Below are positions 9,271-57,834 of a stretch of 64,000 nucleotides of DNA, piece after piece. The position numbers were made by a program, and so were the translations under genes. The notes beneath the pieces were generated by a model, which did not search any database, was not told where the DNA came from, and was given only the letters and a program-made list of their open reading frames with translations. The stretch is from NCBI RefSeq assembly GCF_029962835.1, contig NC_080588.1, forward strand, positions 66,178,001 to 66,242,000, in the 5' to 3' direction. Source of the stretch: Magnolia sinica. Lineage: Eukaryota > Streptophyta > Magnoliopsida > Magnoliales > Magnoliaceae. The stretch's first letter is position 1, and each line of letters begins with the position of its first letter.

Positions 9271-9530
9271 ACTGGGCCGGGTCGGGGTGGATCAATGGGT
9301 CCCGGACCCGACCCATTTAAGAGTTTGGTCAGAAGTTTGGACCAAAAGCCATCCCATTTAAATTTTAGAACTGTCCGGGTCAAAAATATATGACCCATTT
9401 AAATCTTGGAACTGTCCGGGTCAAAAATAGATGACCCATTTGTGTAATGGGTCAGGTCGAGTACCATAACCCAGACCAGACCATCTATCACACGGATCCG
9501 AGTTTAGGTCGGCTCTAGGACATATTTGTG
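9271..9530. repeat. GGGTCGGG/GACCC-rich repeat with 41-bp tandem duplication
   Basis: Opposed GGGCCGGGTCGGGG and CCCGGACCCGACCC motifs surround two 41-bp tandem units starting at 9353 and 9394. Each contains AGAACTGTCCGGGTCAAAAA or a close variant, and a third partial unit starts at 9435. Non-coding, probably a degenerate transposon. Confidence 0.55.
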
Positions 9531-9591
9531 TTGGGCAAAGAAATTACAATTGAGTTTTTATAGAAGTAATGTTCCACACCATTGAATTAGT

Positions 9592-10048
9592 GGTGGCTAG
9601 GCCCCAATCTCACCCAAGACTGTGTGGCCTTACAGTGGGGCCCACCTTGATTTATGTTTTCTTTGTCCATGCGGTCCATCTATCTTGTCACGTCGTTTTA
9701 AGGCATGAGATAAAAAATGAAGTAGATCTAATTCTCAGGTGGACCATATCAAAGGAAACAGTGGTGATTGACCATTAATGGGCCACATAAGTTTTGATTC
9801 AAGCTGACTTTATCAACATTTTGGATGGCAAATAAACATTACGCTGGGGCTTTGGAAGCTTTTAACGGTAAGATGTTCAATCACCAATGTTTCTTATAAT
9901 ATGGTCTACTTGAGATTTGGATCTTCATTTTTGGCTTAATGCCCTAAAATGATGGGGGGAAAACAGATGAACGGCATGGATATAGAATATATACAAGGTG
10001 GGCTCGATGGCAAGGGCCGCACTGTCTTGGGTAAGGCTGGGCCGCACC
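9592..10048. mobile_element. Long-TIR MITE (Mutator-like), copy 1
   Basis: The arms read inward as inverted repeats. The left tip CACCCAAGACTGTGTGGCC (9611) matches the complement of the right tip near 10010-10035. Both then run into the family core: CCCACCTTGAT, a GTCCAT block, CAGGTGGACCATATCA, GAAACAGTGGTGATTGA. The centre holds GATGGCAAATAAACATTACG. No coding capacity. Confidence 0.7.
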
Positions 10049-10239
10049 TAATCCTCTCCCTCAATTTTGATGGTAAAAAGTAAAGAATGAAGTTGCCAGT
10101 GGTCCAAAATTAAATTGGTATAATAAAAAGTTATGGTCCAACTAATGTGAATTTTGGTCTATATCCATTAACAGTGGCGGTCGATTTGCCCATTACAGAT
10201 GTTATGATTGGTGGATGGTAACATTCCTTTGAAACTCCA
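10049..10239. other. Unassigned spacer
   Basis: No gene seen. Confidence 0.4.
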
Positions 10240-10525
10240 CAAGGTCGTTGTGAGTGGTGGATGTGGATATTGGAACCCCACATGATGGGTAATAACATTG
10301 ATGTAGACCATACATCATGTAGGCTCCACATTTGAAGTGGGCTGTCCATTGCACCGGCAACTTTGGATGTGGGCTATTTATCATTAGGGGCCGACCTTTG
10401 ATGTGAACCATCCATTTTGTAGGCCCACATTAATATGAGGACATGTATCATGTAGGACCTAACTTTGACCTGAGCTATCTATCATTTGGGTTCCACCTTA
10501 GATGGGTACGGTCTATCACCTAGGA
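10240..10525. repeat. Degenerate minisatellite, about 50-bp units
   Basis: About six imperfect units of the type CCACCTTTGATGTGGGCTAT followed by CCATC(A/T)T(G/T)TAGG. Starts are near 10260, 10320, 10368, 10425, 10455 and 10490. Non-coding. Confidence 0.5.
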
Positions 10526-10529
10526 AATT

Positions 10530-11098
10530 GGATTGCTTACCTATAGTAAACTCTTATTGTAGTGAGTAAACTTTGTTAGCCCCACTATGAATTCATGTGG
10601 TTTATCTATGCTGTCCTTTCGTTTTTGCAGCTCACTATGAATTCATGTGGTTTATCTATGCTGTCCTTTTGTTTTTGCAGCTCATTTTAGGATTGAGCCC
10701 CAAATTAAAGCATATCCAAAGCTCAAGTGAACCATACCACAGAAAACAGTGGGAATAATGATTTCCACCGGTGAAACCTTGCTAGGCCTCACAGTGATGT
10801 TTATTTGTCATCTAGACTGTTCATATGATCACACAAACATGGATGAAGGGAAAACCCAAATATGAGCTTGATCCAAAACTTCTGTGGCCCCCAAAATTTT
10901 TTCAATGGTAGAAGTTCAATTTACACAATTTCCCATGGTGTGGTCCATTTGAGCTTTGGGTATGCTTTGATTTTGGTGTCAACCCATAAACCTCTCTGGT
11001 AAAATGGATGGATGGAGTGGATAAGATAAATAAATCACAATGAACCTCACAAAGTTTACTCATTACACTTGGTATACTAGTCACTCAGTATGCAATCC
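10530..11098. mobile_element. Long-TIR MITE, copy 2
   Basis: The left arm begins GGATTGCTTACCTATAGTAA and contains GTGAGTAAACTTTGT. The complement of the right end (11092-11098 inward) begins GGATTGCATACTGAGTGACT and contains ATGAGTAAACTTTGT. The interior has the family blocks CAAGTGAACCATACCACAGA and GAGCTTGATCCAAAACTTCT. No matching flanking duplication is visible. A 50-bp tandem duplication sits in the left arm. Confidence 0.7.
10583..10682. repeat. Two tandem 50-bp units
   Basis: CACTATGAATTCATGTGGTT and the following 30 bases are repeated at 10583 and 10633 with one mismatch. The duplication is recent and inside MITE copy 2. Confidence 0.85.
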
Positions 11099-11559
11099 GA
11101 CTCCATCCCATTGGGCCTCCTTTGATAAGCAGCGTGAGAGTGAGGAAGCCTCCTTTGGCATGTGCTGGGGGGAAAGTAGAGCCTCTTTTGACATGTGCTG
11201 AGAGGGAGAGTAGAAGAAAATTAATAAGCAAGAAGGTTAAAAACAACAACTCATCCACATGAGTAACTTTTGGCACTTTAGTTACTTTTATGATGGGACT
11301 TACCAAACTAACTTAGGTGAAAAAAAAAAATAACTTATTTAGTAGTATCCAAACAACCCTTAATTAACTACTTTTTCTTCGTTTGAGTTGAGTTTGAGGC
11401 TGGGTATGGTCCATTATACCATGACTCACACCGTACTGACAAAAACTGGGTGCTGGTTTAATTGGGTTGGGCTAATTTTGAAAGGACCAAATCCACTAAT
11501 TGTTGGATTGAATCCAATGACTTGTCAGATAACCTGACCCATTTGCATCTTTAATTGAT
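11099..11559. other. Unassigned DNA
   Basis: Contains a local GA-rich duplication (CCTCCTTTGATAAGC / CCTCCTTTGGCATGTGCTG, 11117-11195). No gene. Confidence 0.4.
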
Positions 11560-11710
11560 AATAGGGTTGCAAATTGAGCTGTGCTGGCTCGAGTGGCCCT
11601 GAGCCTGAGGGTCATAGGCTGAATATTAGGTTGTGGCCCTGTCGATGCCTAGGACCGAGGTTCTAGTTCAGGGGGCTGAGCCAGGTATTAACTCGGCTGT
11701 CACAAGTTGG
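11560..11710. mobile_element. Possible hAT-MITE end fragment
   Basis: TAGGGTTGCAAATTGAGCTG followed by GAGCCTGAG-type motifs resembles the start of the hAT-like element at 30078 (TAGGGCGGTACAC...). No partner end or duplication found. Confidence 0.3.
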
Positions 11711-11889
11711 TCCCATTCAAAGGGTTGTGATCATCCGATCAACAACGTAATATTTTCACCATGGTTTCTCCCAATTGCATAAATGAACGAACAGTCTAAA
11801 TCAATAATTGGACACTTCACATGTTACTTAAAAGCATTGGTGGCGACATTAGCAAAGCCCATGTATATGTGTACACACACATACAGAAG

Positions 11890-12258
11890 GTCCGACGGGT
11901 TGGACCATAGGTTATGGTCCACCCAGCAGGCAACTTAACTTATCAAGCGGATGAGACATCACCCTGTTCAATAGATTGATTGGCCCCACCAAGAAGAGCA
12001 ATTAAAAAAATAAAATAAAATCAGCCATATCCACTCATCAAGTGGACCACACTTGTATATATGTTGCTATTTATCACTGGCTATACAGTGTTTGCTACAG
12101 TGTGGCTCACTTGATGAGTGGATAGATTTTTTTTTTTTGGCACTAGTATCCACACGGTAAGGCCAACCTATTAGAAGGATTGGATGTCATATATAAGTAT
12201 ATAACAGGTTGGGGGTTGTCCACTAGGTGGACTGTCACTTACGGTCCAACTGGTTGTT
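11890..12258. mobile_element. Second long-TIR MITE family
   Basis: The left arm GTTGGACCATAGGTTATGGT continues through GGTTGG-type blocks. It pairs with the complement of the right end, AGTTGGACCGTAAGTGACAG. Nearer the centre, CCACTCATCAAGTGGACCAC (about 12033) pairs with CACTTGATGAGTGG (about 12108). The core differs from the main MITE family. A related fragment with CCACTCATCAAATGGACCAC occurs near 28655. Confidence 0.55.
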
Positions 12259-12840
12259 GAGAGGTTATCCATGTTCCCAAACCATTTAAAGCACATGGGA
12301 AGACCTACCATCAGTCTAAATCATCCATTCATTCATACAACTAAGAACAAGCCATGGTGTAAATATCACACCAATTGAATGATCCTAACCTTTTGAATGG
12401 GGCCAATCTGTTACAACCATATGTTGTTATGAGATATAAAAAAAAACATTATTATAATAATCAAATCAAATTGTTACTTCATAATTATGTGAAATACAAA
12501 GTGAACTCTCTCTTAGTTGTTTGGAGATGATTGTACTTATTTGTTTCTTCAGTCATCATTTTCAACCTATTTGGCAATATAAACCATTCATTCATTCATT
12601 CTTACAATTAGAACTTGTTCCATTTTTTGTTTAAACTTAGCAGAAAATATAGTAGTTTTTTCGAAGATCCAATTAATTTGTTCTCAAGAAGTCTTATTTG
12701 CAACAATATCAAATTTTTCACAAAGATTAAAACTGAGAGTTAAGATCTTACATGATTAAATTATGTGATACCTTTTTATGATGATTTTGCCAATAAGATC
12801 CTCTAAACGAATTGTAAATGAAAGGAGTAGTGCTATGCCC
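12259..12840. other. Unassigned AT-rich DNA
   Basis: Contains a short ATTC microsatellite (12585-12602). No gene. Confidence 0.4.
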
Positions 12841-13290
12841 TTCCATTATTTAGGCCTTTCACTATAAATCTTGTTTCCATCCAGATCAAAGTAGTGGGCC
12901 ACCATGTTATCATTAAGGCCAATTAAAATAAGTTTTGATGGTTAAAAATATTCATAAACCCGATTAAAACTTTTAAGTGTAGGGTCTTTTCATTTTTTAG
13001 GTCATTCATCATAATCAATGTAGTGGACTATTGGATTTGGGCCACCAAGTTATAATTAAGGCCGATTAAAAAAAGGTTTGATGGTTAAAAATATACATAA
13101 ACCCGATTAAAACTTTTAAGTATAGGGTCCTTCCATTATTTAGGCCATTCACTATAAATCTAGTTCCCATCCTGATCAAAGCAGTGGACTATTAGATCTG
13201 GGCACCCAGTTCTCATTAAGGCCGATTAAAATAAGTTTCGATGGTTAAAAATATTCATAAACCCAATTTAAACTTTTAAGTGTACGGTCT
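12841..13290. repeat. Three tandem units of about 145-160 bp
   Basis: Unit starts are near 12841, 12987 and 13131. Each runs from TTCCATTATTTAGGCC through AAGGCCGATTAAAATAAGTT and GATGGTTAAAAATATTCATA to AACTTTTAAGTGTAGGGTC. Unit 2 has lost part of its first block. No coding frame is maintained. Confidence 0.8.
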
Positions 13291-13985
13291 TATGATAAAA
13301 TCATTTGATGAGTACTTGATATAATTGGATATAACATACAACAAGATTCTATATCTATGACACACTTATGCTACCGTGAAAGGTAAGGGAAAAGACAAGT
13401 AATGCCAAGTTGTCTCCTAATGGTAGAGGTCTTCCACCACCTTGACTCTGAGTCAGTACCCCCATATAGAATGATTATACATCTCAAAGCATGACGTTCA
13501 TGTAAGATTTCTATATGGTGGGCATAATTGATCAACGGTCTAGATCTGCCCAAGAGTTGAATATCATGATCGGGCATGTAATTGGACTCCACTCTCAAGT
13601 TGTGATTAATCAAAAATTATGTATAGGTGGTGCACTACAGCTGTGTTAAATGGACAATGCCATAGTTGGACCAGGATTCTTAAATTTTTATAAAGCTTAA
13701 AGGAAAAAGTTTCATTGGGTTTCAAACTCCCTACACTTAATAACTATATAAAAGAAGATGGGTCCCAAAAGCTACACATGTCTGAAGTTATTTTTCCATC
13801 CTTAATACTTTTCTCATAAGGTGTTTGTTTTCTTGATTTCCACCGTAAATAGAATTAAATTGGTAATAATTACATTTTGCCACATTTTGAAGCAAAAAGG
13901 ATGCAAAAGGCGAATCGTGCATTAAATGCCTGATGAAAAAGGTGATGGCTCGTATGGGAATTATGCGAGATAATTAATGAGTTTC
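13291..13985. other. Unassigned DNA
   Basis: No gene or recognisable element. Confidence 0.4.
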
Positions 13986-13989
13986 AATA

Positions 13990-14410
13990 CAATGTGTGCT
14001 TCTAATCCACACGGTCCATCTGTTTTAGGAGTTCATTTTAGGGCATCAGCCAAAAAATGAGGCAGATATGAAGCTGAAGTGGGCCACACCACATGAAACA
14101 ATGGTATTAATAACGTCCACTACTGAAAATTAAATCCTTATCAGGGCCAACAGTGATGTTTATTTTTCATCCAGACTGCTCATAGGATCACAAAGATATT
14201 GATAAAGTTAAAATACAAAATTCAGCTTCATCTAAAATTTCTATGGCCCTATATAGACTTTTCAACGATAGAGTCAATTCCTACTGTTTTCTACGTTGTG
14301 GTCCATTTCAAACATGTTACAACCTTAGCTTTGGGCTCATGCCATAAAATGAGCTGCTAAAATATATGGACGACTTGGATAAGCCAAAAAAAATCACGGT
14401 GGCCCCAAAA
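13990..14410. mobile_element. Long-TIR MITE, copy 3 (degenerate)
   Basis: CACACGGTCCATCTGTTTTA, TTTTAGGGCATCAGCC and GGCCACACCACATGAAACA form the left arm. TTGTGGTCCATTTC, GGGCTCATGCCATAAAATGA and GGACGACTTGGAT form the right arm. The central GATGTTTATTTTTCATCCAG is retained. Confidence 0.6.
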
Positions 14411-15732
14411 AGTTTTTACCTTTTCTCCATTTATGTAACAAACATATTTTCACTTGTACTGTTATAATTAAAAATGTTGCTGGAATTATTTGCATAAACA
14501 ATTATTACTTATTTGCAAGTATTTTCTAAAGTAAAATAAAAATAGGGTGTGAGGTGCAGATCAAGGCTACAACATTTGGACTACAACAATGGCCTCTCAA
14601 CTAAGTATGAATTTTAGTTTAGTTTTCTCGGTCTCCATCTTTGATGTATTGTACTATCCTTTCAATTCCGCTACAATTCACGGATTATTCTAAGCATTTG
14701 TGCCGGTCGTGGCTAACAAGGTATTGAGATCCATGGAACATAAATCTCCATAGTCAATGTCTACTATTGATGCAAAAATTAGGCATCCTCCTTAGACCAC
14801 TTGAGACCTACAAAATAGGACAAAGATGGAGACCCCGACTGCTGCAGGGGACCCTCCGATGCCAAAGTCAGATAGGCAAGATATGCCTAGTAGAATGTAT
14901 GGTTTTAGGATATAAAATTATGTGTACCTTTCACTATTAGGGATGCTCCTATTTATAAGTGAGAGAAGAAGGTGGCGTAAATGGAGATTTTCTTATTTAG
15001 CAGCGACGTATTCTAGAGGGATTCGGATCCCCAGCGTATCACATTGATCTTTCAAAATCTTCAGCCCAGGTTGGAATTAGTAGAAGCACGCAGTGGGAGG
15101 CCGAGGTGGAGAGTTGTTCCAAGGTAGGGTTCGACCAACTTGGGTTCTTTTGTCGAGTTGTTACCGAGCTCCTTTTGGTGTTGAGTAGATTAGCGGTCAG
15201 TCGAACTACCTTTGGAAACTGTGTAAGAAGACCGAGGTCGATCTCCTTTCCTGCTCGAGTTGAGCTCTCTGACGTATTAGTTGTTAATCGACCTCGTAGT
15301 GTGCACAGATGTTCGACTTGACTTTATCTCATTGGTCAATCCATTTTTACCCATAATATCTACTATGTATAATATTAAGTTTTTATAGACGAGATGATTC
15401 GTTATTCACATGACCCATATTATATAAGTTTAAGGTAGTATTAAATATAAGTTAAGTCATAACACTATGAGTTTTAGTTTTCCTGATTGCACTAGTATAC
15501 TTAAACAATCCAATCCATTGATCTAGATTGATCACTACAACGAATGTTCCATGGACTATCATGAAAACATCAAAGTGATTTAAAAATAGTAGCCATTTGA
15601 ACAATGGCATTGGTGAACATCATTTACACAAGATAAGTCTAAACAATAATTAGTTCATCTATTTGTTAGGGACCATCATGGTTGATATATATATATATAA
15701 TCACCATGGTTATGCAACGATAACCATCCTTG
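14411..15732. other. Unassigned DNA
   Basis: No supportable gene. An AT dinucleotide run lies at 15688-15701. Confidence 0.4.
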
Positions 15733-17520
15733 TCACGCTCCAAACTTGGAAACCAGGCTTACAAAATTTCTGATCGCTAAATCCGACGTCGACAACATCC
15801 ATAGTACCCCATTCTCAGCTACCGGTGCCCATACGCCAGATTCCGATCCTTGGATTCTACAAGGAAAATTTTTCAACATACATTTATCCCGTAAGAAGCA
15901 TGACCATAAGTTTACCCAAATCACAAAGGCAATATCATCATCACATATCCACTAATATAAATACTTGAATACAGTGCTAAAAGGGAAAATACATATATCA
16001 AAAATCAAAGCTCCAGAAGACAGTTGTAGACTCCAAGCTCAACGCTGCTACGACCTAACGCCACCTACACGCATCTATCCTGCATAAGCTTATAGAAAGC
16101 TTAGAGGGTGGTGTAAGTTTGTGCGATGCACGTGCCATGCATATAAATATCAAAGTAAGTGAAAATATTGACAATCCATAAATCGTACAATATCAGAGTA
16201 ATACGGAAATATGCTGGTAAGTCCATAAATATCATCAACCTTATCCAAGCTATGCGATGCAAAAACATAATAAGCTAATATCATATACTGAGGAAACAAT
16301 GTAGATCAGTTATGCAATGCAGAGATATAGTATGCCAAATATCATATACTGAGAATGCAATGCAATATACAAAACCTAATGAGTCCACAAATACAGTTAT
16401 GATCATTTATGCCATATAAATGCAGAAACATAACAACCCAAAATGTCATATGCCGCGAATGCAGTATGCGGTCGAATGTAATGACCAAGCCAGAGTGTGA
16501 AGTCAGGATGATAGTACGTAGTATCGCAAGCTATGGGGTCCATCACAAGGGAATTCTATCTAAACCAGTCTCATACCTAAATTTGGATAGATAGACTCAA
16601 TGTAGTAGACTCTTGATCTCCGGTTGGTTGTGCGCTCCGACCGAAATCGTGGCCATTGCTAAGGTATACATAACAATTAGTTGCGCACTACCAGCCCGAG
16701 TGGATAGTGAATGAATGAATGAGTATAATGTTGAGTATGCAACTCCTACTCAATAAGTCCACATATCAGTACCGTACATCTCTGGGATCATCACCGGGGT
16801 TTATTACACTCGACGCCACCTAGCGCCCTATCAAACGTACAACTGGGTAAGTGAAAAAGACCTCACTATCCACCTACCAGCAGTATACCAATACCTACCA
16901 GGCTCGTTGATAGCGGACTCATTTATGAGCTGGTTAAACTCAGCCTAACATCGCCTACTCCCTCGGGTGGGTAAGGCCACACCCCCTCTCAACCGATCAC
17001 GACATAGTGGGAGACGCGACCTACTAGTATTCGGCACTCGGGCGCTCATGTATCCACTCGTTGTAGACGTTGGGGCGTCTTCTAGTACCTAGAGGGTTTA
17101 GAAACTTTCACTTAGGGATATCTATGACACCTCATGTAGAAAAAGATTTTCGGTGTCTTATCTAGCCATTTTCGATATGCCTGTGGAGGCTACGGCCCTA
17201 ATGTCGCTAGGGCGTATGGTGGTCATATCACAAAATGTGAGATGCATGAGTCATATCATCCAGTCATGCATCAAATTTGCGCGTACCGCGCATTCATATA
17301 GGTCAACTCCGTCTCTCAGGAAGTCTCATAAACAATCAGCCCAATGGCACATGCTATGCTCAATCATTCCTTATAACAAGCATGTGGATGATGCGTATGG
17401 GCATGTATCATGATGTAATACTATACATTTACTCACAATCAGTATCGATAATCGGCCTAACAAAGGGTCTAAGGAAAGGTCACAATGTAGACATTTAACC
17501 ATCATTGCCCATCATTGTGG
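15733..17520. other. Possible LTR-like sequence, unassigned
   Basis: Begins TGTCACGCTCCAAACTTGG, a start reminiscent of plant LTRs. Further in, a 58-bp period with ATATCATATACTGAG repeats at about 16252-16353, and ATGCAATGC motifs occur. I found neither a second copy nor a matching end, so an LTR identity is only a suggestion. Confidence 0.25.
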
Positions 17521-17595
17521 ACATTTAACCAACATTGCTCCCAAGGAGTGGCCCACATAGAGCCAAACGCATAATGGGATCCGTGGCCTCACTCA

Positions 17596-18190
17596 AGGGC
17601 CTAATATACATCATATTGGGCTCACTTATAGGCTGCATATACATCACGATGGGCCTCGGCACATAGGCGATAAATACATCACATTGGGCCTCACTCATGG
17701 GCCACATATACATCACAATGAGCCATAAATATATTACATGGGCCGGGTATACATCATAATGGGCCTCGACACATGGGCCATAAATACATTACATCGAGCC
17801 CCAACACATGGGCCGGGTATACATCATATTGGGCCTCAAACGTGAGCCTCGTATACATCAAGTCAGACCGCATTAATAGGCCGCACCAATGGGCTACATC
17901 TCATGGGCCTAATATACATCATAATGGGCTGCATCACATGGGTCTTATATACATCAAGTTGAACCGCATCAATGGGTTGCACCAATGGGCCTCATATACA
18001 TCAAGTGGGCCACATCACATGGGCCTAATATACATCACAATAGGCCTCATTACATGGGCCGTAACAAAGGGACTCATATACATTAGGTGGGCCCTGCATC
18101 ACATGGGCCTCCTATACATCAAGATGGGCCTAATACACATCATGGTGGACCCCACGCCCCATGAACGGTGTGGATATACTTCAAGGTAGG
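17596..18190. repeat. Degenerate tandem array of TATACATCA/GGGCC units
   Basis: Seventeen occurrences of (A/T)ATACATCA or close variants, each followed within about 10 bases by GGGCC, AGCC or a variant. They are spaced mostly 30-45 bp (for example 17602, 17637, 17672, 17706, 17749, 17817, 17914, 17994, 18029, 18112). The unit resembles the terminus of the local long-TIR MITE (ACATACATCATGGTGGGGCC). Non-coding. Confidence 0.7.
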
Positions 18191-18860
18191 GTCCACATCC
18201 AGTAACAGATGGACGGATGGTTATAGGATACATGCATCAAGAGGCCCACAGTCCACAGCAGATAGTCGTTGCAGATATAGAATATATATACATTAAGGTG
18301 AGCCCTACCCGTCCCAGCCTATGGACGGTGTGGATAAGACCTATACATCACAGCAAGTTTCACACAGATAGACGGTGTGGAATACAATACATACATCAAT
18401 GGACCACCATCCACGTCCAGGGACTGGACGGTGTGAATGAAACACATACATTATGTGGGTCCCACGTGTGGAGCCACGTGCCACCAGGGCAGGCCCCATG
18501 GATGGACAGAGCAGATAAAGCACTTACATTGGTGGGACCCACTGTCCTTTGCTGGACGGTGTGGATTTCACACATTCCACATGGAGGGGTCTACGGATTG
18601 ACAGAGTGGATAAAACACTACATCATGGTGGTGTTCCACCGTCCAGCAACAGATGGACAGTGGAGATATAACACAGACATCATGGTGGGGCCCACATGTG
18701 CCATCAAGGCAGGCCCCACAACTTGCTGACATCAATGTCAATACAACAGCTATATAGCTGTTGTGAGGTACACCAGCCGATCCAACCTCCCACCATCCAG
18801 AGGTTGGACTGTGAGGATACAACACATCCATCGTGGTGGGGCCACACGTGTGGCCCACCA
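18191..18860. repeat. Degenerate array of GGACGGTGTGGAT...CATCA...GTGGG units
   Basis: Continues the preceding array with longer units of about 65-90 bp. Each carries a variant of TGGACGGTGTGGAT, then ACACATACATCA, then GGTGGG(G)CCCAC and often CCGTCCAGCAACAGA. Units are seen near 18210, 18325, 18372, 18425, 18500, 18555, 18600 and 18655. Confidence 0.6.
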
Positions 18861-19115
18861 TAACGTTTATCTTCCATCCAGTCTGTTGATAAGGTCATAA
18901 AGACCTGAGCAGGAGGAAAAATAAATTTCATATTTATCCAAAACTCCTGGGACCTAAAAAGGGTTTCAAAGGTAGACGTTCAACCTCCTACTGTTTTTTG
19001 GTGGTGTGGACCACTTGAGTTCTGTGAACGGCTGATTTTTTGGGGGATCCCATTTCCTAAAGGGGACTCATTAAATGAACGATGTGGATGTTCAACATAC
19101 ATCATGGTGGGGCCT
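18861..19115. mobile_element. Long-TIR MITE, partial copy 4
   Basis: The central block (AACGTTTATCTTCCATCCAG, TTGATAAGGTCATAAAGACC) is followed by a right arm (GTAGACGTTCAACCTCC, GTGGTGTGGACCACTTGAG) and the terminus AACATACATCATGGTGGGGC. The left arm is replaced by the tandem array. Confidence 0.6.
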
Positions 19116-21005: not shown

Positions 21006-21224
21006 TAAGGCCCCGTTTGTTAAATCTAAAGTCTAAAGCCTGAATCTAAAATCTGAAGCTGAATCTGAAATCTGAAGCCTAAATCTGAAATCTGAAGTCA
21101 AAAAACTTGTTTGATAATTATGGCTGAAGCCTGAAAATTTAGTATTGAATTTAAAACAATCTGTTTGTTAACAAATATCTGAAATGTCTGAAATATGTTA
21201 ATTTGATCAAGCTGATTTTTGTTT

Positions 21225-21508
21225 TTTTTTTTACTTCATCTGGGAATGTATGACCTAATCAACATATTGGATGTTAAATAAACAGTACAGTGGGCCCTAG
21301 GAGGATTTTAATGGTGGATATCTAATCACTATTGTTTTCCTGTGGTGTGGTCCACCTGAGGTTTATATCCCTCTTATTTTTGGGATAAAGACATAAAATG
21401 GTACATAAAAATAGATGAATGGAATAGATGAAACACATGCATCATGGGGGCCACAGAGCACCAACCACCACCAACCGGGATGGTGGCAGGGGAGTAGCCA
21501 ATCCGTTT
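21225..21508. mobile_element. Long-TIR MITE, right half only
   Basis: Runs from the central ATTGGATGTTAAATAAACAG through GTGGTGTGGTCCACCTGAG and AACACATGCATCATGGGGG to the tip GGGGAGTAGCCAATCCGTTT. This is the same tip as the intact element ending at 29605. The left arm is absent. Confidence 0.6.
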
Positions 21509-21571
21509 CTGTATCCAGCTATATAGCTGGTGTAGATGAGCACGGATTAGATACTGACGAGACTCGCTACT

Positions 21572-22035
21572 AAGTTACGTCACCAAGTTCTGTGGACCCC
21601 ACTATGATGTATGTGTTGTATCCACAACGTCCATTCATTTGGATATATTATTTTAATGCATGACCCGGGAAATGAGGCAGATCCAAAGCTTTAGTGGACC
21701 CCACCACAGAAAATAATGGGAAGATTGATGTCCACCATCGAAACCTTCCTAAGGTCCACCATAATGTTTTTTCGAAATCCAACCTATTCAAAAGTTTAAA
21801 AAGCATTAAAGAAGGGAAACCACAAACATCAGCTTGATCGAAAACTTTTGTGGCCTTTATAAGTTTTTAATGGTGGTGTCACTCTCTCCACTGTTTTCTA
21901 CAGTGGGGTCCATGGGATCTTTGGATGTAACTCATTCTTTAGATCTTATCCTAAAATGATCTCTCCAGATGGATGGATGGCATGGATACAAAACATACAT
22001 CATGGTGGGGCCCATAGAACTTGGTGACGTCACTT
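21572..22035. mobile_element. Long-TIR MITE, copy with ACGTCACCAAG tips
   Basis: The left tip AAGTTACGTCACCAAGTTC (21572-21590) matches 18 of 19 bases of the complement of 22017-22035. Both arms continue through CCCCACTATGATGTATGTG, CCACCACAGAAAATAATGGG and the family interior. No clear flanking duplication was identified. Confidence 0.75.
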
Positions 22036-22114
22036 CAATAGCAATCACGTCCCCGCCCATCTGCTCCAAGGCGGATTGCGTCCAACCCCCGCCCGGACAG
22101 ATTACCATCCGGGC

Positions 22115-22535
22115 AAGCTCTGTGGAGCCCACCGTAATGTAAGTATTTTATCTAAGCCGTTCTTCATTTTTCTCATATTATTTTAATATATAATCTTAAA
22201 GATTAAGCAAGTCCACAATTCCAGTGAACCACCCCAAAGGATGCTACAGTGATAACGACATCCACTGTTGAAACCTTTTTGAGGGCCACTATGATGTTTT
22301 TTTTTACCATCCAGCCTATTCATTAGGTCATGTAGACGTGGATGAAGTGAAAACACAAATATCAGCTTGATCCAAAACTTCTCCAGCTCCTAAGAAGTTT
22401 TTAATGGTAGACGTTCAATCCCCACCTTGTGGTCCAATTAATCCTTAGACCTAACTCTTTTTTGGCTCACACCTTAAATAATATGAAAAACTTGATGGAC
22501 GGTGTGGATCAAACACATAAATCATGGTGGGGTGT
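22115..22535. mobile_element. Long-TIR MITE, degenerate copy
   Basis: Begins at AGCTCTGTGGAGCCCACCGT, carries the central ATCCAGCCTATTCATTAGG and AATATCAGCTTGATCCAAAA, and ends at AATCATGGTGGGG. Confidence 0.6.
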
Positions 22536-22830
22536 AAAGAAATTTCAAAGGTTAAAAAGTTGGTTTTGCATTGCGCAAAGAGAAACAATTGCCGTATTAA
22601 CTTAAAAGTGGATAATTTTGAAAATAAAAATTTTTGTTTAATAAAAAATTTGTTGAGCGCATTCCGCGTTCACCATTAAGTCAGACTCCTATCACTGAAA
22701 AAATTCAGTGAAAAACCTCTTAGCGCTTTCCTTCTTCCGCGTTACTGATGCATTAACAAACACCACTAAACACGGAATATTTTCCCCATTCCGCGTTAAG
22801 TGCAAAAATTCAGCGTTAACAAATAGGGCC

Positions 22831-24230
22831 TAAGTCAGGCATATTTAAGATGCCTCGGCCAAACATGGGCCGTCAACTCATTTAGTGGGCCGCACCTATA
22901 TGCTGAATGTGAACCATACACAAGCAGCTCGCTTGATTGTCAGATTGACCTATCTTTGGGCTTAGGTATCCATGTGGTCCACCAGATTACCATCTCCGCA
23001 AAAGTCTTGCATTTGACTCATTTTTCGGATTATGTCCTAACATAAGATGCAGAAATTGGACGGAGAATTTCTCATATACATCTTGGTGGGCCCCATGTAG
23101 CTTCTAACGGTAGGAACGTCCCGCGGCCGGGCAGTGTGGCACATGCAATTCGCATCCCCTCCAATCTGCCATACGTACGTGTAAGACATCCGTGCAATGA
23201 AAATAAAGGCCTCACAATGAATATCACTAGACCGGTGATATTAGCAATTGGCCTCCCATCCGAACTAAATGGGAAATTGACGGTCTGATTCAACACAAAG
23301 GTGTGACGTACCTAATAATCAGAGGAAATGATGAGACTACAAAACATTAGAGAGCAACCTATTGTATCTGATCAATTCTCCTTTCAAAAAAGGTGTGGCC
23401 ATGCCCGCACATGTGTAGAAGGGAGCCCATCCACGTACCACCCCATGAGCTATTATGGCACATTTGTACCAGATCCAGTCCATTATTTGAGTTCCCTTGC
23501 CTTAGATGCCCTCGCCAAATTTAATCTGATCCGCTTATTAAATGTGTGGCCCATCTCTTCATTGAATCAAACCTTTGGTCGTCCAATGAATCCAGATTTG
23601 TGGCTCACCTGATCATATTACCTACCTTTCCTTTTTGCCATGTGATCTTCATGGTCGACCCTACCTTGAGGCTAGCTTAAGCCCAGCCCAGAGAAGATTA
23701 GACTCCTTATCAGGGCCATCCCATACTAGTTTCCAACCTACCTTTATACCCCACTTATCACATGGGTCAGATTAGCCTTATTGTCCCATCAATGGACTTT
23801 TTCTAGACTGGGGTCGTACCGTATTCATTGGGTGGTATAGGCTTCATCAATGTGACTTTTAGGTTATGGCCCATCCAAGAGGTGGCTCATTATTGGACGG
23901 TCCAGATATACCGTCACGTCAAAGAAAAATGGATGCCCTGCATCAAATTAAGAATGTCCAATGATCAATCGGAATGGTTCATTCAATAGTCCATTTTGGA
24001 TGACATGGCTCTATGTATCCATTTGTAGCCATCTTAGCCGTAGTAGTGTTTGGAGAACGGACGGTCACTAAATGAGAGACCCAGTGTTTAATAGTTTAGC
24101 GTCAACCAACGAGAATGACATGTTCATGGCAGCCCAGTAAGGGTGGGGCTTACCTGATGAGAGGTCCAGATCAGAGGACTGGATTAAGTAGTGACACGGC
24201 CAGTACCCACCTGTGTGCTGGTCGGTTCTG
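22831..24230. other. Unassigned DNA with short MITE-like motifs
   Basis: GGTGGGCCCCATGTAG near 23083 and GATTAGGCCAT-type phrases resemble MITE termini, but no pair of arms can be drawn. No gene. Confidence 0.35.
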
Positions 24231-24234
24231 GAAA

Positions 24235-24600
24235 ATCTGTGGGCCCGCCATGATGTATTTATTTTATCCACTCCGTTCATCCATTTTGAGAGATTATAAT
24301 TGGGCATGAGCTCAAAAATAAGGTAGATAAAAATCTCATGTGGACCACACCATGGGAAACAGTCGTGATTGAACACCCATCATTAAAAACTTATTAAGCG
24401 CCATAAAAGTTTTCTGTATGATCTAATCAACGGGTTGGATGGAAAATAAACATTACAGAAAGCCTTAGGAACTTTTTAATGGTGGGTGTTCAACAAATAT
24501 TGTTTTCCTGTGGTGCAGTCCACCTGATATTTGGAGCTGCCAAATAGGCTGATGCCTTAAAATAATAATTTAAAATGGATGGACGGTGGAACTCGAAGGG
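24235..24600. mobile_element. Long-TIR MITE, truncated at right tip
   Basis: The left arm starts at TGTGGGCCCGCCATGATGTA. The interior and right arm are present to ATGGATGGACGGTGG, then similarity stops before the CATCATGG terminus. Confidence 0.6.
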
Positions 24601-24871
24601 TCACTATCGAATCCGAATTCCCTGTCCGTGTGTCTTTTGGTTTTGGTCCTTAGTGCATTGCACACAGCACACCTGTGACTAAGCAGCTCTATGCAGAAAG
24701 GAAAATCCAAATGATTAGTTCCCTTCCCTGTAAGGTTTTCAAAGGACGCTATTTACACGTGACCTTACAGTAATCCGTGTAATCCTTACATGTCCCCCCC
24801 TAAAAATGTACAAAGCCTAAACATTAGATATGAGTACCCATCCTATGGTTGTCACAAGTCTAGGTTTTTCT

Positions 24872-25021
24872 GCTGGATCCTTGCTCTTGATAAGGTGGTA
24901 GACTCTTCGGAGTTTCAACACCTGGTCAAGGTTCGAATATCCATAGGTGGTGAAAGCCCACTAAGGCGTGAGTGTGTGGGGGTGTGCGTGCTTGTTTTTT
25001 TTTTTTTTTTTTTTTTTAAAA
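24872..25021 (+). mobile_element. tRNA-derived SINE with poly(T) tail
   Basis: Starts near GGATCCTTGCTCTTGATAAG. The A-box-like part is AAGGTGGTAGACTC (24891), and the B box GGTTCGAATATCC is at 24930-24942. The body is GT-rich and ends in 23 T (24995-25017). It is flanked by AAGTCTAGGTTTTTCT (24856-24871) and AAGTCTAGATTTTCT (25022-25036), an imperfect target duplication. A second copy lies on the minus strand at 26240-26369. A T-ended tRNA SINE recalls rice p-SINE1, but I do not claim that family. Confidence 0.7.
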
Positions 25022-25147
25022 AAGTCTAGATTTTCTCCTTGTTGCAATAGGATTGGGCCACAACAAATATGGCTCAATCACATCGTGACAAGCAAGAAAT
25101 CCCTACTTGCTGGTCCAGACTTATCTCACACACACTGGTCCAGACTT

Positions 25148-25148
25148 A

Positions 25149-25196
<48 letters not shown>

Positions 25197-25198
25197 TC
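25148..25198. repeat. (CT)n(CA)n compound microsatellite
   Basis: About 12 CT repeats followed by about 12 CA repeats. Confidence 0.9.
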
Positions 25199-25200
25199 TG

Positions 25201-25530
25201 TTTGGTGGACCATTGAATTGTAATCAATTAACCAAATTCACAATGGAGGTCAGCCACTTATACATGTATATAATCAAAATGTCATATGTAAAAGGCATAT
25301 ATGAATGGACAACATGGATAAAACACATGCATCAATGTGGGGCCCACATGTATAGTAAATTTCAAAATCCACTAAAATCTTACACGGGACCAAATGTAAT
25401 TCCATCCCAACTAATCCCAACCTTTTCCATACTCCTCAAATGCTGGACCGAATTTGCACGGAAGTAAATGCAATTTCAATATCACACTTAATCCTATTTA
25501 ATACCATGCGCCAAATGCCCCCTACACAAT
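25201..25530. repeat. Direct duplication, unit A
   Basis: TTTGGTGGACCATTGAATTG, through ATGGACAACATGGATAAAAC and CCATCCCAACTAATCCCAAC. Repeated in the same order at 25610, about 409 bp downstream, with many substitutions. Confidence 0.75.
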
Positions 25531-25609
25531 AATTGCATGTTTGGAAATACTCCCATGCTTGGGATGAAATGATTGCTATCGAAAAAACACTAGATTAAGC
25601 AAAAACCAA

Positions 25610-25910
25610 TTTGGTGGACCTTGGAAATGTAATCAAGGAACCAAATTCACAATGGCTGTCAGTCACTTGTACACATATGTCACTAGAAAGTCACGTGTAA
25701 AGGACAAATATAGATGGACAACATGGATAGAGCATATGCATCCATGTGGGACCCCACGTGTAGTAGATTTCAACCAGAAATCTGAGGACCAAATATAATT
25801 CCATCCCACCTAATCCCAACCATCTTCGACTCCCAAAATGGTGGATGAAATTTTACACAGGACCAAATGCAATTCCATTCCACCTAATCTCATTTACCAA
25901 ACAACCCTCT
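25610..25910. repeat. Direct duplication, unit B
   Basis: TTTGGTGGACCTTGGAAATG, through ATGGACAACATGGATAGAGC and CCATCCCACCTAATCCCAAC. Divergent copy of 25201-25530. Confidence 0.75.
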
Positions 25911-26184
25911 TCATTGCTAGTTTCACATCCATGGGCGTTGCTAATTTGGAGGATCCTTGGATCACCGAGGTGGGTGAAACCCTGACCGTGGGGCTCCCTA
26001 TGATGTATATGCCTTAAATCCACAATGTCTAACCATTTTGACCGCTCATTTTAAGCCATGATCCAAAAAAATGAAGTTGACCCAAATCTTAAGTGAACCA
26101 TACCATAGGAAACAGTTGTGATTGAATCCCCACCACTAAAATCTTTATGGATTCCCCCGTAATGTTTATTTGCCATCCAACCAC

Positions 26185-26186
<2 letters not shown>

Positions 26187-26215
<29 letters not shown>

Positions 26216-26278
26216 CCCATAATGTTTATTTGCCTTCCAACCTCTTTACACACACACACCCACACACCCACACACTCA
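26187..26278. repeat. CA-rich microsatellites at the SINE tail
   Basis: Two CA arrays (26187-26214 and 26248-26278) separated by a copied piece of MITE centre. Confidence 0.85.
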
Positions 26279-26369
26279 CACTAGTGGAATTTCACCACTC
26301 ATGGATACTCGAACCCTTGACCGGGTGTTGAAACTCCTGGGAGTCTACCACCCGGGCAAGAAAGGATCC
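26240..26369 (-). mobile_element. tRNA-derived SINE, minus strand
   Basis: Complement of the SINE at 24872. GGATCC lies at its 5' end (26364-26369), GGGTGGTAGACTCCC follows, and the B box GGGTTCGAGTATCC is at 26303-26316. The GT-rich 3' part has expanded into a TG microsatellite in place of the T tail. Confidence 0.65.
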
Positions 26370-26724
26370 AAAGACTTAGATGAAGAGACCAAACAGATAT
26401 CATCTTGATCCAAAGCTTTTGTGGCCTGCAAGAAGATTTTGATAATCATTTACCACTGCTTCCTATGCTAGATCTGATTCATTTTTTCGATCATGTCCAA
26501 AATTAAGCTTTCAATATGAATGGACGGCATTAATGTAATCACATGTATCATGGCGGGCCCACAGCCAGGGTCTCACCCACCGCCGCACCCCACATCCATT
26601 AGGCCACATGAGGGGAGATGGGGTCACCGCTAATTGGCATCCGTTTTCAAGCATTCAATGTATTTACAAATGGCACACATATATTGATCCTCTTTCTCTG
26701 TTAGTTTCACGAGTTCAAGGCAGG

Positions 26725-27010
26725 AGCCTTTTAATGGAATATATCAAAAACTTAAGTAGGCCACACCACTAGAAACGGTGGGAATGGAAACACCCACCGT
26801 TAAATCCCATTTATAGTCCACCACGATTTCTCATACCAGCCATCCATTCAATAGATCATTCTTTCATTCCACGTAAATATCTGCCCAGTCCAAAACTTGT
26901 ATTCATATAAAGAAGATTTCAATGGTCAGTATTCCATCCTATCATTTCTTGTTGCGTGTTTTCTCAGGTTTTAGATATGTTTGATTTTAATATCACATTT
27001 TAATTACGTG
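26725..27010. mobile_element. Degenerate long-TIR MITE-like sequence
   Basis: GGCCACACCACTAGAAACGG, CACCCACCGTTAAATCCCAT and CATACCAGCCATCCATTCAA follow the order of the family's left arm and centre. The right arm is hardly recognisable. Confidence 0.4.
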
Positions 27011-27826
27011 AACTACTGCAATAAATAGACAAAGTTTATATAACACAAGCACGCCATTAGACCCCACAATTACCTAAACCTTGATACAGTAGGTGAGTCA
27101 GCTTGACTCATCCAAGTCTACTTTAATTTAGGCTAAATTGACTCATTCAAAGAGAAAGATATCAAATATCTAGATTTTTTTATTTTTTATTTTTATTTTT
27201 ATTTTTATTTTTTATATCCTGTATGGATGATTCGATCCGCAAGAACCTTGATTGGGAATTCTTTGATCGTCTTTCTCCGGGTAAGAATGAACCTAGGATT
27301 GAATATTTCAGTCCCATGGTCCAAGCCAAAGTCGCCCAAGTAGGACGGGCTACCCGGTCCATTGCCACCCTTACCTGACGGTCGGCAGGCCATACATCTA
27401 AGGTACACTTTTCAGACCATCCTAGCCATAGATTAGACCATTCATTTTTTGAATTTAACATTAGCCACTGGTTAGATTTCTTCCTAACCATTCATTTGTT
27501 AATGCTCAAAGAGTCCTCCAATCAGTGGCCATGATCACCTGACTAATGGGCTTTTGAGGTACTCCCCATCCACTATATGGCCCAATAGATAAAGGGTCCG
27601 GATCATCCAATACACGAATTGAATGCTTGATAAGTAAGAGTTATAAAATGTTAATAGCTCTAGATCCTCCATCACTTCCCTAAGAATAATAAAATGGGCC
27701 ATCCACATTGAATAGTGATGCTTTAAAGACCCTTGAATTAATGCCTGCATATGTACCTCTTTGATTGAAATAATTAAAATTAAAATAACAATAATACTGC
27801 AATCCACGAACTCAAGAACTCAATAC
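27011..27826. other. Unassigned DNA
   Basis: A T-rich microsatellite lies at 27176-27213. No coding similarity was recognised in the open frames. Confidence 0.4.
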
Positions 27827-27917
27827 ATAAAGGTGCGTTTGGTTGCACCAAATATCTAATATGAAATATCAAGAAAAAAAAACCTACAATTAAAAAAAAA
27901 AAAAAAAAATCTACATA
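27827..27917. mobile_element. Tourist-like MITE left end plus A run
   Basis: AAAGGTGCGTTTGGTTGCAC followed by CAAATATCTAATATGAAATATC matches the left end of 32545-32645. The right end is missing and A runs follow. It lies directly downstream of the small minus-strand gene and may form part of its 3' UTR. Confidence 0.45.
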
Positions 27918-28247
27918 CTAGCGTTTCTTGAATTGGGGAACATCCCATCTGACTTCCTCAACCGCTAGCGGTGGTAGGTTAGATTCGTCATTCTTGAAAC
28001 CGTCGTCGAAGTTCTGCGAGTAGCTAACGACATCGTATTGGAAGCTAATAGGTTTAGAGCTGTAGATGGTTTTACCTTCCCTCATTAGTTTTCTAAATAG
28101 ATTTCGCCACCTCCGGCTTCGGGAGGAAGCGCCGTGGCTGAGAAAATGAAAGCGGGAGTGGTCATTGCGTAGAGGAAACCATGACGGCGATGCCATGCAG
28201 CCGGAGAAGTATGCTGTCTGCCGTTGGTGGGTCAGATCGGAATCCAT
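27918..28247 (-). CDS. Small plant-specific protein of unknown function
   Basis: A 109-codon frame with its ATG at 28245-28247. The features are YFSGCM (residues 13-18), a basic patch SSRSRRWRNLFRKL (41-54), and ISFQYDVVSYSQNFDDG (67-83), then an acidic-to-neutral tail ending FKKR. I recall the same order (YFSGCM, RRWRNL.RKL, SFQYD..SYSQNFD.G) in uncharacterised, widely conserved small proteins of flowering plants; no function is known to me. There is no signal peptide or membrane segment. Composition is unlike the neighbouring repeats and no transposon domain is present. The frame extends three codons upstream of the ATG but without another ATG. Confidence 0.6.
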   Translation of the reverse strand: MDSDLTHQRQTAYFSGCMASPSWFPLRNDHSRFHFLSHGASSRSRRWRNLFRKLMREGKTIYSSKPISFQYDVVSYSQNFDDGFKNDESNLPPLAVEEVRWDVPQFKKR

Positions 28248-29004
28248 TGCACACAAGAAAACTAGGGGGACTGTGGTTTGTGAGTTGTGACGTTTGTGGA
28301 TGGAAGGAGTGGATGTTGTTTCATTCTAGTGAAGGATTATAATGTGTGTTTGTCACACCCACTAAGATGTAGCAACTCATGCCCCCGAATAAATCTCCAC
28401 TGTCGAAATCATGGGACCCATCTTCAATGTAGTGTAGCCCAAAAATCAACCTGTTGTGATCTCAACCATTTGGTTTGGATATTTTCATCTGGACCATGTA
28501 TCAGTGTATTTCTAAAGAAAATGACTCTAGTGGGACCGCTTGAACAGTAAGTGGTTGTCCACCTAGTAGATAACTTCCAACATTTCATATGAGTGAGATC
28601 CGATTAAATAGGTAGGTCCCATCACGAGGATGACCTTGTGCAAAAGTCAGCGACAACCACTCATCAAATGGACCACACTTGTATTTTGTTGTCTATGAGT
28701 GGCTAACCGGTTAAGATGATCTCATTTCTAAACATCCAACGGATGACCAATTGGATGGTTAGGATCTCCCGATTGTTTATGTCCAGCTGTGTCAAACGCA
28801 CATTTTATTATACGCCTTGGCCCCTGAGAACCCCTAGCGGTGCCTAGCTCGAGAGTAGGGGTAGTACGAATCCGCGTCTGATCGGCTCTCATTTTCAAGT
28901 TAGACACAATCATATCATGATTTGATGTTTATCATTTTGCCATGCACTGGGTTGTATTGATAATGATGCATGTCATAGTACATTTTCTCTTTTATCCCGC
29001 GAGT
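28248..29004. other. Upstream flank of the small gene; MITE-like pieces
   Basis: The promoter of the minus-strand gene should lie at its left end; no element was identified. Positions 28540-28705 resemble the second MITE family (CCACTCATCAAATGGACCAC). Confidence 0.35.
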
Positions 29005-29013
29005 TATAATGGA
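29005..29013. repeat. 9-bp target duplication, left
   Basis: TATAATGGA, repeated exactly at 30062-30070. Confidence 0.85.
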
Positions 29014-30061
29014 GGGAGCGGATTAGGTGTTGCCTGGGTAACACCCATGGGGCCAACCTTGATGATGTGTTGTATATGCACCCTGTCTATCTTGTTTTTG
29101 GAAACGGAGTGGCTACTCCCCCTGCTCTGTGGGCCCTATCAAGATGTATGTGTTTTATTCCGTTAAGCCATTTTTAAAGATCATTTTAGGGCTTTATCCC
29201 AAAAATTAGAGGTATATAAATCTCAGGTGGTCCACACCACGTGAAAACAATAGCGATTGGATATCCACCATTAAAATCCTCCTAAGGCCCACTGTATTGT
29301 TTATTGGATATCCAATCTGTTGATTAGGTCATACAGGCCTAGATGAAGGGAAACAACAAAAATCAGCTTGATCCAAAGCTTTTATGGCCCCCAAAATGTT
29401 TTTAATGGTCGACGCTCATTCAACACTGTTTCCTGTAATGTAGTCCACTTGAGATTGGATATTACTCATTTTTGGGATCAAGCCCTAAAATGATATTTAA
29501 AAATGTATGAATGAAATGGATGAAACACATTCATCATGATGGGGCCCACAAAGCACTGATCATCAGCCATTGGCTGGTGTAAGGGGGAGTAGCCAATCCG
29601 TTTCCATCTTTTTTTTTTTTTTTTTCTTTTTTTTTTGTCCATTTTAGGATGTCACACCAAAATGAAGCAAGCACAAATTTTAAATGGACCGCACCATAAA
29701 AAACAATGGTGATTGGATGCCTACCATATTAAACTTCTTAGGGCCCACTGTAAGAAGATCTATAATTTTTATTTACCATCTAACCCGTTGATAAGGCCAC
29801 CAGTCCGAGATGAAGGGAAAATCCCAATATCAGCTTGATCCAAAACTTTTGTGGCCCATACTTTGAACGTCATTCACCACTTTTTTTTTTCATGGTGCGG
29901 TCCATAGGAGTTTTGGATCTACTTAATTTTTATGATAACATCCTAAAATTAACTGAAAAAACGGTGGGTAGCATGAATATACAGCATATTAATCAAGGTA
30001 GGCCCCACATAGTAGGTAATACCCGCTAAGGTGTTACATGGGTAACACATAATCCACTCCC
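29014..30061. mobile_element. Long-TIR MITE (outer) with exact 9-bp duplication
   Basis: The left tip GGGAGCGGATTAGGTGTTGC and the complement of the right tip GGGAGTGGATTATGTGTTAC are inverted repeats. Both continue to GTAACACC and then the family core. TATAATGGA flanks both ends. A 9-bp duplication with long TIRs is the signature of Mutator-like elements. A second element of the same family (29100-29605) is inserted in its left arm. No coding capacity. Confidence 0.85.
29100..29605. mobile_element. Long-TIR MITE (inner), nested
   Basis: The left tip GGAAACGGAGTGGCTACTCC and the complement of the right tip GGAAACGGATTGGCTACTCC match at 19 of 20 bases. They are followed by the core (GGGCCCTATCAAGATGTATG and its partner). 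The flanks ATCTTGTTTTT (29089-29099) and ATCTTTTTTTT (29606-29616) agree at 10 of 11 bases, consistent with a 9-11 bp duplication, the right one later expanded as a T run. Confidence 0.8.
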
Positions 30062-30070
30062 TATAATGGA
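30062..30070. repeat. 9-bp target duplication, right
   Basis: TATAATGGA. Its last base is also the first base of the hAT element's duplication. Confidence 0.85.
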
Positions 30071-30077
30071 TTGCAAG
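30070..30077. repeat. 8-bp target duplication of hAT element, left
   Basis: ATTGCAAG, identical to 30633-30640. Confidence 0.85.
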
Positions 30078-30632
30078 TAGGGCGGTACACAAACCGAGTT
30101 AGTTTGGTTAGCTTGCTCGACTCGACTCAAAAAAGCTTTATCGAGCTGATTTTTTTAGCTCGAAAAAATTTCAAAACTAGTTCGAGCTTGCCTAAGCTCA
30201 ACTCGACTCGGATCAAACTCAACGCGAATTGAACTCGAATCAAACTAATTTCGTGATTCGGTTACTTTGATATTGATGTTGCTCACCAAGTGTTTGATGA
30301 AATGACTCAATGAAATGTTTGGCAAGGAAGGTATGTTTCATCAAACAAATACCTTTGATGTTGCCTACAAGGTGTTTGATGAAATACCTGTAAAATCGCT
30401 ATTGGTGTTTTATATATAGTGAGAATTTGAAGGTGCAGTCCATGTGTTTGTGAAAATGCTGAATAGATGGACTTAGCTCAATCTTGGCTTGAACTCAGCT
30501 CGAATTGGCCCGAGCTGCTAACCAAACCGAGGACCGAGCCAAGCTGAGCCAAGTTTGAGCTGAAGTCAGCTAGTGGCTGAGGCGAGTCGACCTATGCCAA
30601 GCTCGACTCGGATCAACCAATGTACACCTCTA
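30078..30632. mobile_element. hAT-like non-autonomous element
   Basis: Termini TAGGGCGGTACA and (complement of right) TAGAGGTGTACA match at 9 of 12 bases and are flanked by a perfect 8-bp duplication ATTGCAAG. Subterminal regions are packed with GAGCTCGA / CTCGACTCG motifs on both sides. The 555-bp body has no transposase. Confidence 0.85.
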
Positions 30633-30689
30633 ATTGCAAGAACAGAAAACCTCTCAAAGGTATCACAGTACCAGTTTCCATGCTCATAT

Positions 30690-31045
30690 AATATTGGTTT
30701 TAAACATGGGTATAAGCCCAAAATGATTAGATCTAAGGCTCAAGTAGACCACATGCCGGGAGCTAAATGCCCACCATTAAAAACTTCTTAGGAGCCATGA
30801 AAGTTTATATTAAGTTGATATTAATTTTCTTTTTACCATTCATCCAAGTTTACGTGACCTTCTGAATAGGTTCGATGGCAAATAAACATCATGGTGGGCC
30901 AAGAATGCATCATTGTCACTTTTTTGTGGTCCACTTGAGCCTTGGATCTACCACATTTTTGGGTTTATACCCTTAATATGATATGGAAAAATGGATGGAA
31001 GGTCTAGATAAAACCCATACATCACAGTGGCCCCTCAGAGGCCTT
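30690..31045. mobile_element. Long-TIR MITE, degenerate
   Basis: TCAAGTAGACCACATGCC and CCCACCATTAAAAACTTCTT form the left arm. CCACTTGAGCCTTGGATCTA and ATGGATGGAAGGTCTAGAT with CATACATCACAGTGG form the right arm. The centre (GGTTCGATGGCAAATAAACA) is in inverted orientation relative to most copies. Confidence 0.6.
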
Positions 31046-51715: not shown

Positions 51716-51721
51716 TATAAA
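51716..51721 (+). promoter_or_regulatory. LTR1 TATA box
   Basis: TATAAA in CTCTTATAAAGGGAAG, conserved at 57717-57722 in LTR2 and 63736-63741 in LTR3. Likely marks the U3/R boundary of the element promoter. Confidence 0.65.
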
Positions 51722-51869
51722 GGGAAGAAAGAAAAGAGAAGTGGGGATCGAATCTCGGTTTGGGGCTTGGACGATTACAAGGGAGAGAGAGAGAGAAGAT
51801 AGAGAGTAGTTGTTGTTTTTTGTGTTCTTTTGTTTTTGGAGAGTTCTAGCCTCATTATGTCAGGCTAAA

Positions 51870-57779: not shown

Positions 57780-57834
<55 letters not shown>

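Follow-up and report, generated by a model that had tools for sequence, protein, structure and literature searches.

In Aedes aegypti, 9-15 bp subterminal repeats are found in 10 of the 12 families of Mutator-like elements (MULEs) with long terminal inverted repeats (TIRs), and the derivatives of these elements share their TIRs while the number of repeats varies (PMC5225508). The 64,000-nucleotide stretch of Magnolia sinica DNA analysed here, which we call the window (positions 66,178,001 to 66,242,000 of contig NC_080588.1), holds a superfamily of miniature inverted-repeat transposable elements (MITEs) that resembles Muta1 and the other A. aegypti MULEs in its target site duplication (TSD; 8-9 bp in the mosquito families), in its long TIRs and in having, just inside a terminal motif, subterminal repeats specific to the family. 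Muta1 carries nine tandem copies of its repeat, whereas the arms studied here carry three, in the order direct-inverted-direct; the A. aegypti derivatives have common tips and different interiors, whereas here the core is common and a subterminal segment differs by class. Plant MULEs with multiple long TIRs (Ferguson and Jiang 2012, PMC3310237) are alike in having repeated recognition modules in their arms and TSDs of 9-11 bp, but there whole TIRs stand in tandem, whereas here a short class-specific triplet appears rewritten on both arms. Bacterial insertion sequences offer a likeness of another kind, since one of their terminal inverted repeats can be copied onto its partner (Ling and Cordaux 2010, PMC3004938); they differ from the present case in having TIRs of 23 bp and in lacking a radiation of tips into subfamilies.

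Among the papers listed in our literature searches, none describes the pattern reported below in its title or in the opening of its abstract, which does not prove that no such description exists. CACTA and hAT elements, which belong to other superfamilies and make TSDs of 3 and 8 bp, carry class-specific short motifs in both orientations near both ends, where they are bound by transposase proteins. Tm1 of root-knot nematodes is reportedly a Mutator/Foldback element, that is, a Mutator-type element with foldback arms.

The six elements named in the original prediction are members of six large subfamilies, classes A, B, C, D, E3 and E4, of a single Mutator-type (MULE) MITE superfamily. That a core family with matched arms occupies these six places was borne out by self-BLAST of the window, an inverted-repeat search and direct reading of the sequence; the self-comparison also places the shared core at several further sites. 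The inner-arm strings quoted for the family hold as consensus-like forms, with 0, 1 and 1 exact window matches for CATGATGTATGTGTTTTATC, GGTGGACCACACCACAGG and GCCATCCAACC, respectively, while two of the proposed left ends lay 34 and 38 bp too far in and are corrected here to 21538 and 25933. The assembly that contains the window (1,838,573,281 bases in 127 contigs) was searched with one query for each of the six classes. For each query 40 candidates were scored out of 6,135-12,041 first-look candidates, counts that are inexact, and at least 39 further genomic places were found. With class consensuses 519-558 bp long and thousands of such (inexactly counted) candidates per query, the superfamily is MITE-like in size and copy number, and it is non-coding, as none of the 26 window reading frames of at least 110 amino acids falls within the listed tip-bearing elements. 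The arms are long TIRs, alignable over about 190 bp, with a mean left-right consensus identity of at least 0.80 out to the inner core; they stop at a non-repeated centre, and the self-complementarity of the whole element is 67-68% in two window copies.

For the TSD analysis, 122 loci of the six classes were fetched, both ends were placed in 92, and 30 were dropped. The class consensuses guided the placement of ends because a TSD search without tip guidance gave false matches on the palindrome TGGGGCCCA. A 9-bp TSD matching at 8 or more of its 9 positions was found in 55 of the 92 elements, 27 of them perfect, against 10 of 1717 control flanks. Duplications of 9 bp, within the 8-11 bp (mostly 9 bp) typical of MULEs, occur in all six classes, which indicates that every class is MULE-type. 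Eight loci (L071-L078) are passengers of a PIF composite described below and for that reason do not enter the analyses of E3 arms, TSDs and tree, although they did feed the E3 consensus.

Read from the outside in, each arm consists of a shared terminal box of 12-16 bp, a class motif triplet, an outer core that the classes have in common and an inner core that is less symmetric. The box, which resembles GGGARRCGGATTRG, is common to all six classes (for example, C, E4 and the right arm of D have GGGAGCGGATTA, A has GGGAACGGATTG and B has GGAAGCGGATTG), and the outermost bases are therefore not private, contrary to what had been proposed. It is the subterminal part that is private to a class, and it is built in each arm of three motif copies of about 9 bp in the order direct-inverted-direct. 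The motifs are TTGGCTnnT in A, CGTACTGAG in B, GGTGCGGCC in C, GGTGTTACC in D, GCTACTGAn in E3 and GGTGnnnCC in E4, and their copies start at nearly constant positions, at bases 10-13, 24-28 and 36-41 of the arm. When each class arm was compared with 300 shuffles, the triplet reached p<=0.017 in 11 of the 12 class arms, the exception being the left arm of A (p=0.07), and a seventh class, K, met in the flanks, also fits (p=0.003 and 0.007 in two copies). The trait typical of Muta1, family-specific short repeats inside a terminal motif, is thus found in those 11 arms and in class K, and not in class F. The tips of C, D and E4 are built on a common framework of three GGTGnnnCC copies and are 59-66% identical in subterminal windows. 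One of the outcomes that the original prediction had named as telling against tip swapping, tips of different elements aligning as one diverged sequence, thus holds for the terminal box of every one of the six classes and, for C, D and E4, over most of the tip as well.

Left-right consensus identity in the subterminal part is 0.94 within classes and 0.36 between them, so the match between arms is not accidental, the corresponding values being 0.90 and 0.77 in the box and 0.80 and 0.75 in the inner core. We fetched 162 loci, of which 112 could be scored on both arms and 50 were dropped (E4 and its variant E4p were pooled), and found the same tip class on both arms in 111. The sole mismatch is the nested 29014/29100 pair of the window, where the scan reached the outer class D tip. 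The claim that the arms of one element share a tip class, and that different classes have a core in common, is upheld at the level of subfamilies. Tips private to single elements were considered and rejected: each class of tips makes up a large family that has a core of its own, another outcome that the original prediction had itself named as telling against tip swapping. The agreement of arms extends to the spacer between motif copies 2 and 3, which reads CAAGAC in C, TTAGTG in D and GAGGTG in E4, the same on the left and on the right of each consensus and different among the classes. Matched spacers are not what separate selection on each binding motif would produce, and they point to a paired change of whole blocks. 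Some differences between left and right are fixed, for instance CACCAGCCAATGG versus CACCAGCCCCGTGG in class A, which speaks against copying as a continuing process.

A tree of the cores of 92 elements requires five changes among the six tip classes, which is the minimum, so that tip class corresponds to core clade. A, B, D, E3 and E4 each form one clade. L041, an element with C tips, is placed as the sister of the D clade (98/75), a position that suggests a derivation of D tips from C-like tips. All C (15/15), D (19/19) and E4 (19/19) elements scorable on both arms combine a full left arm with a right arm that lacks 9 bp in its inner part; this deletion is absent from A (0/29), B (0/11) and E3 (0/10). 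The common ancestor of C, D and E4 must therefore already have had unequal inner arms, which implies that the arms were already different when the tips of both were rewritten; the inner arms of the three classes remained unequal during amplification. This order of events fits tip replacement followed by amplification, one of the routes envisaged at the outset, and overall the data support paired tip replacement at the level of subfamily founders, followed by amplification.

The same pattern might be sought in the ordinary divergence of old MULE lineages, with parallel point mutations at both ends fitting one evolving transposase and no copying between arms. The box shared by all classes, the correspondence of tip class and core clade, the framework retained by the C, D and E4 tips and the lack of clear copying within classes (see below) are all in keeping with such a history. 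However, left and right arms agree even in the spacers between motifs and in those outer-core letters that are specific to a class, and some two thirds of the subterminal positions vary from class to class, so that the same many point changes would have had to occur twice; we regard this explanation as unlikely.

Tip-core agreement could also have been built into the sample, as an artefact of picking or aligning loci by whole-element similarity, and five of the six class searches did use whole elements or large parts of them as queries, with 40 candidates scored each. The class D search, however, used a query without the left tip, and a separate tip-only search used 63 bases of the D tip without the core; both returned matched tips and D cores. 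As the TSDs moreover confirm the ends, we consider an artefact of this kind very improbable. The tip-only search gave 40 matches, 20 of which were fetched: 19 have a D core and one (L137) is unclear, and in these 20 loci there was no tip shuffling between cores and no other tip class on the opposite arm.

We lean, if only slightly, towards the view that the triplets are address sites for transposases, replaced as matched blocks at the founding of a subfamily and then amplified, in which we infer the binding, the address function and the copying step. The paired tips suggest matched address labels for a mobilising enzyme. The terminal box would be a general cleavage end, and the triplet would be an address read by a class-specific transposase, probably through a FAR1-type DNA-binding domain, in which case all six copies of one element must agree. 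A new subfamily would arise once both arms have had their tip rewritten as one block. The most likely route would be copying from one inverted copy to another, whether through arm-to-arm conversion or through hairpin or template-switch repair of the palindrome in the tip, after which the founder would amplify with its tips unchanged. Both parts of this proposal, the address and its replacement by copying between inverted copies, are put forward because of the layout of the arms, the matched spacers and the precedents of Muta1 subterminal repeats and TIR-to-TIR conversion in insertion sequences.

Some copies of the E4 group carry the outer tip GGCTTYGGTGGATCC (variant E4p) in place of GGATTAGGTGAGACC. 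The two forms differ over the outer 20 bp or so and have the remaining tip in common, and the outer motif copy of E4p is the exact partner of its inverted copy (GGTGGATCC...GGATCCACC). Among 40 E4-group loci, 20 are E4 on both arms, two are E4p on both, one (L168) is mixed, and 17 have at least one unscorable arm. In the rooted core tree, copies with E4 on both arms stand at the base and again in a nested clade, with E4p copies between them, the support of the inner forks being moderate and the bootstrap not settled; this arrangement implies that the tip state changed more than once. It is conceivable, and we propose it only tentatively, that tips are a switchable address, non-autonomous elements changing transposase by rewriting their six motif copies together through hairpin- or arm-templated copying, with E4/E4p as a switch in progress. 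In the right flank of two related copies (L126 and L133), a D-like palindrome, GTTACCCGGGTAAC, lies directly outside the E4p tip.

Candidate sources of transposase were sought among MULE genes. The MULE domain has at least 150 matches in the assembly, and of the ten loci inspected two (L177 and L180) have class-type tips on both sides of the gene. L177 holds a 772-amino-acid FAR1+MULE+SWIM frame inside 1,680-bp inverted repeats (380-2058 and 7034-8712, the second extending into L185) that are 97.3% identical, are bordered on both outer sides by (TA)n runs, and include E3-type arms 82% identical to the E3 consensus. Both of its arms hold the same nested members, which indicates that long arms can here be copied or duplicated after insertions. 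In L180, an 881-amino-acid FAR1+MULE+SWIM frame lies between two B-type tips, in an otherwise unrelated interior.

L180 is the kind of locus expected if ends were exchanged, that is, if an element with matched tips, such as an autonomous MULE, had picked up the core shared by the classes when recombination, or a gap repair that was interrupted, took place within the homologous outer core. The E4 and E4p forms, alike except in their outermost segment, can be read in the same way, and the outer segment of E4 matches that of a C variant (L036). On the other hand, the D tip-only search, with 20 of its 39 further matches fetched, gave no clear core other than D, and the C, D and E4 tips resemble variants of one another, not unrelated imports. 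An exchange of ends therefore seems to us an improbable origin of the classes.

Several observations weigh against the triplets being addresses replaced in matched blocks. The triplet pattern had been noticed beforehand on the same consensuses that the shuffle test used, and in class F the triplet is not significant (p=0.22 and 0.27 in two copies). The tips of the two arms of one element are hardly closer to each other than to those of other elements of the class: same- and different-element identities are 0.819 and 0.817 in A (p=0.18), 0.544 and 0.554 in B (p=0.66), 0.683 and 0.674 in C (p=0.16) and 0.822 and 0.821 in E3 (p=0.41), giving no clear sign of copying, with a weak excess in D (0.735 and 0.724, p=0.049) and in E4 (0.759 and 0.746, p=0.036). 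Ongoing gene conversion between arms was accordingly not seen, and arm-to-arm copying, the other route of the original prediction, is not supported as a continuing process. Shortening of a single arm between the first and third motif copies is seen in several members of C and D, so one-sided changes are tolerated, and at least two such C copies (L032 and L037) retain perfect TSDs, which indicates that the three motif copies are not strictly required. The half-switched E4 locus, L168, has no TSD (6/9) and may be a recombinant. Eight of the ten MULE genes inspected have no class-type tip pair, FAR1-type genes can be host genes, and no convincing 9-bp TSD was found at the class-type tips of L180 (best 6/9) or L177 (best 7/9), which makes these two loci leads, not proof.

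Turning to the individual elements of the window, the class C element (motif GGTGCGGCC) lies at 9590-10060, with the box GGGAGAGGATTAGG at its right end (10060) and motif copies on the minus strand at 10040-10048 and 10015-10023; its left end is decayed, its start uncertain, and no TSD was found (best 7/9, away from its ends). The class B element at 10524-11104 has the tip motif GCGTACTGAG, an internal tandem duplication near 10585-10680 and no TSD (best 6/9). The class E4 element at 25933-26590 has an E4p-type left tip (motif GGAGGATCC at 25948-25956), a shortened right tip and an interior interrupted by CA repeats, and is flanked by a perfect TSD, CACATCCAT (9/9). The class D element at 29014-30061, with the tip GGGAGCGGATTAGG, carries the motif GGTGTTACC at 29026-29034 and 30030-30038 on the plus strand and at 29037-29045 and 30041-30049 on the minus strand, and has the perfect 9-bp TSD TATAATGGA. 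Nested inside it is a class A element in plus orientation (29100-29605) with a shortened left tip, the motif TTGGCTGGTG at 29570-29579 on the plus strand, and a TSD matching at 8 of 9 positions in three equivalent registers (29098-29605 to 29100-29607). Self-BLAST and sequence reading also identified a core-only remnant without visible intact tips (14014-14415), a partial member lacking its right tip (24237-24586) and another partial member (30709-31045).

A PIF/Harbinger-like composite occupies 21009-22830, with the ends GGCCCCGTTTGTTAA... and ...AACAAATAGGGCC and the TSD TAA. It carries three members of the superfamily: a truncated class A copy on the minus strand (21202-21510; tip AGAAACGGATTGGCTACTCCCC read inward from 21510), a class E3 element (21538-22053, ends approximate) and a class F element on the plus strand (22067-22540; tip GGCGGATTGCGTCCAACCCCCGCCCGGAC..., the copy whose triplet gave the lower of the two class F p values). 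The E3 element has its left box and motif CTCGCTACTAA at 21563-21573 and a dyad, GTGACGTCAC, in its right tip; no TSD was found for it. Four other copies of the composite (L091-L094), 90-96% identical where extended, show that it was amplified together with its three MULE-type MITE passengers; they are about 2.4 kb long, the window copy having an internal deletion near 21204. TAA or TTA stands on both sides of all five copies checked, which is the TWA target duplication of PIF/Harbinger elements. In seven other class A copies (L009, L015, L021, L022, L023, L025 and L030), one tip is replaced by a GC-rich segment (ATTGGGCGCG...CGCGCCCAAT) that adjoins a class-B-like element, and because some of these loci are alike over 2-3.4 kb, a larger element seems to carry them.

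Elsewhere in the window, an open frame of 613 amino acids made of pentatricopeptide repeats (6815-8653, minus strand) is probably a host gene, and diverged tandem repeats, 81-83% identical, lie at 12839-13291. Tandem repeats of about 6 kb, 95-97% identical, fill 49130-64000; integrase (rve) frames of the retroviral type lie in them at 54636-55460 and 60616-61395. A stretch of 0.95 kb at 38882-39828 is related to these repeats.

How the ends of transposons and their transposases change together without loss of mobility is an open question, as a change is needed at the two ends simultaneously. The genome studied here contains at least six sister subfamilies that have one core in common and differ in their matched triplets, along with FAR1-type MULE transposases, a setting in which a code relating domain to motif would be directly readable, and the one-sided deletion provides a dated marker of paired tip replacement.

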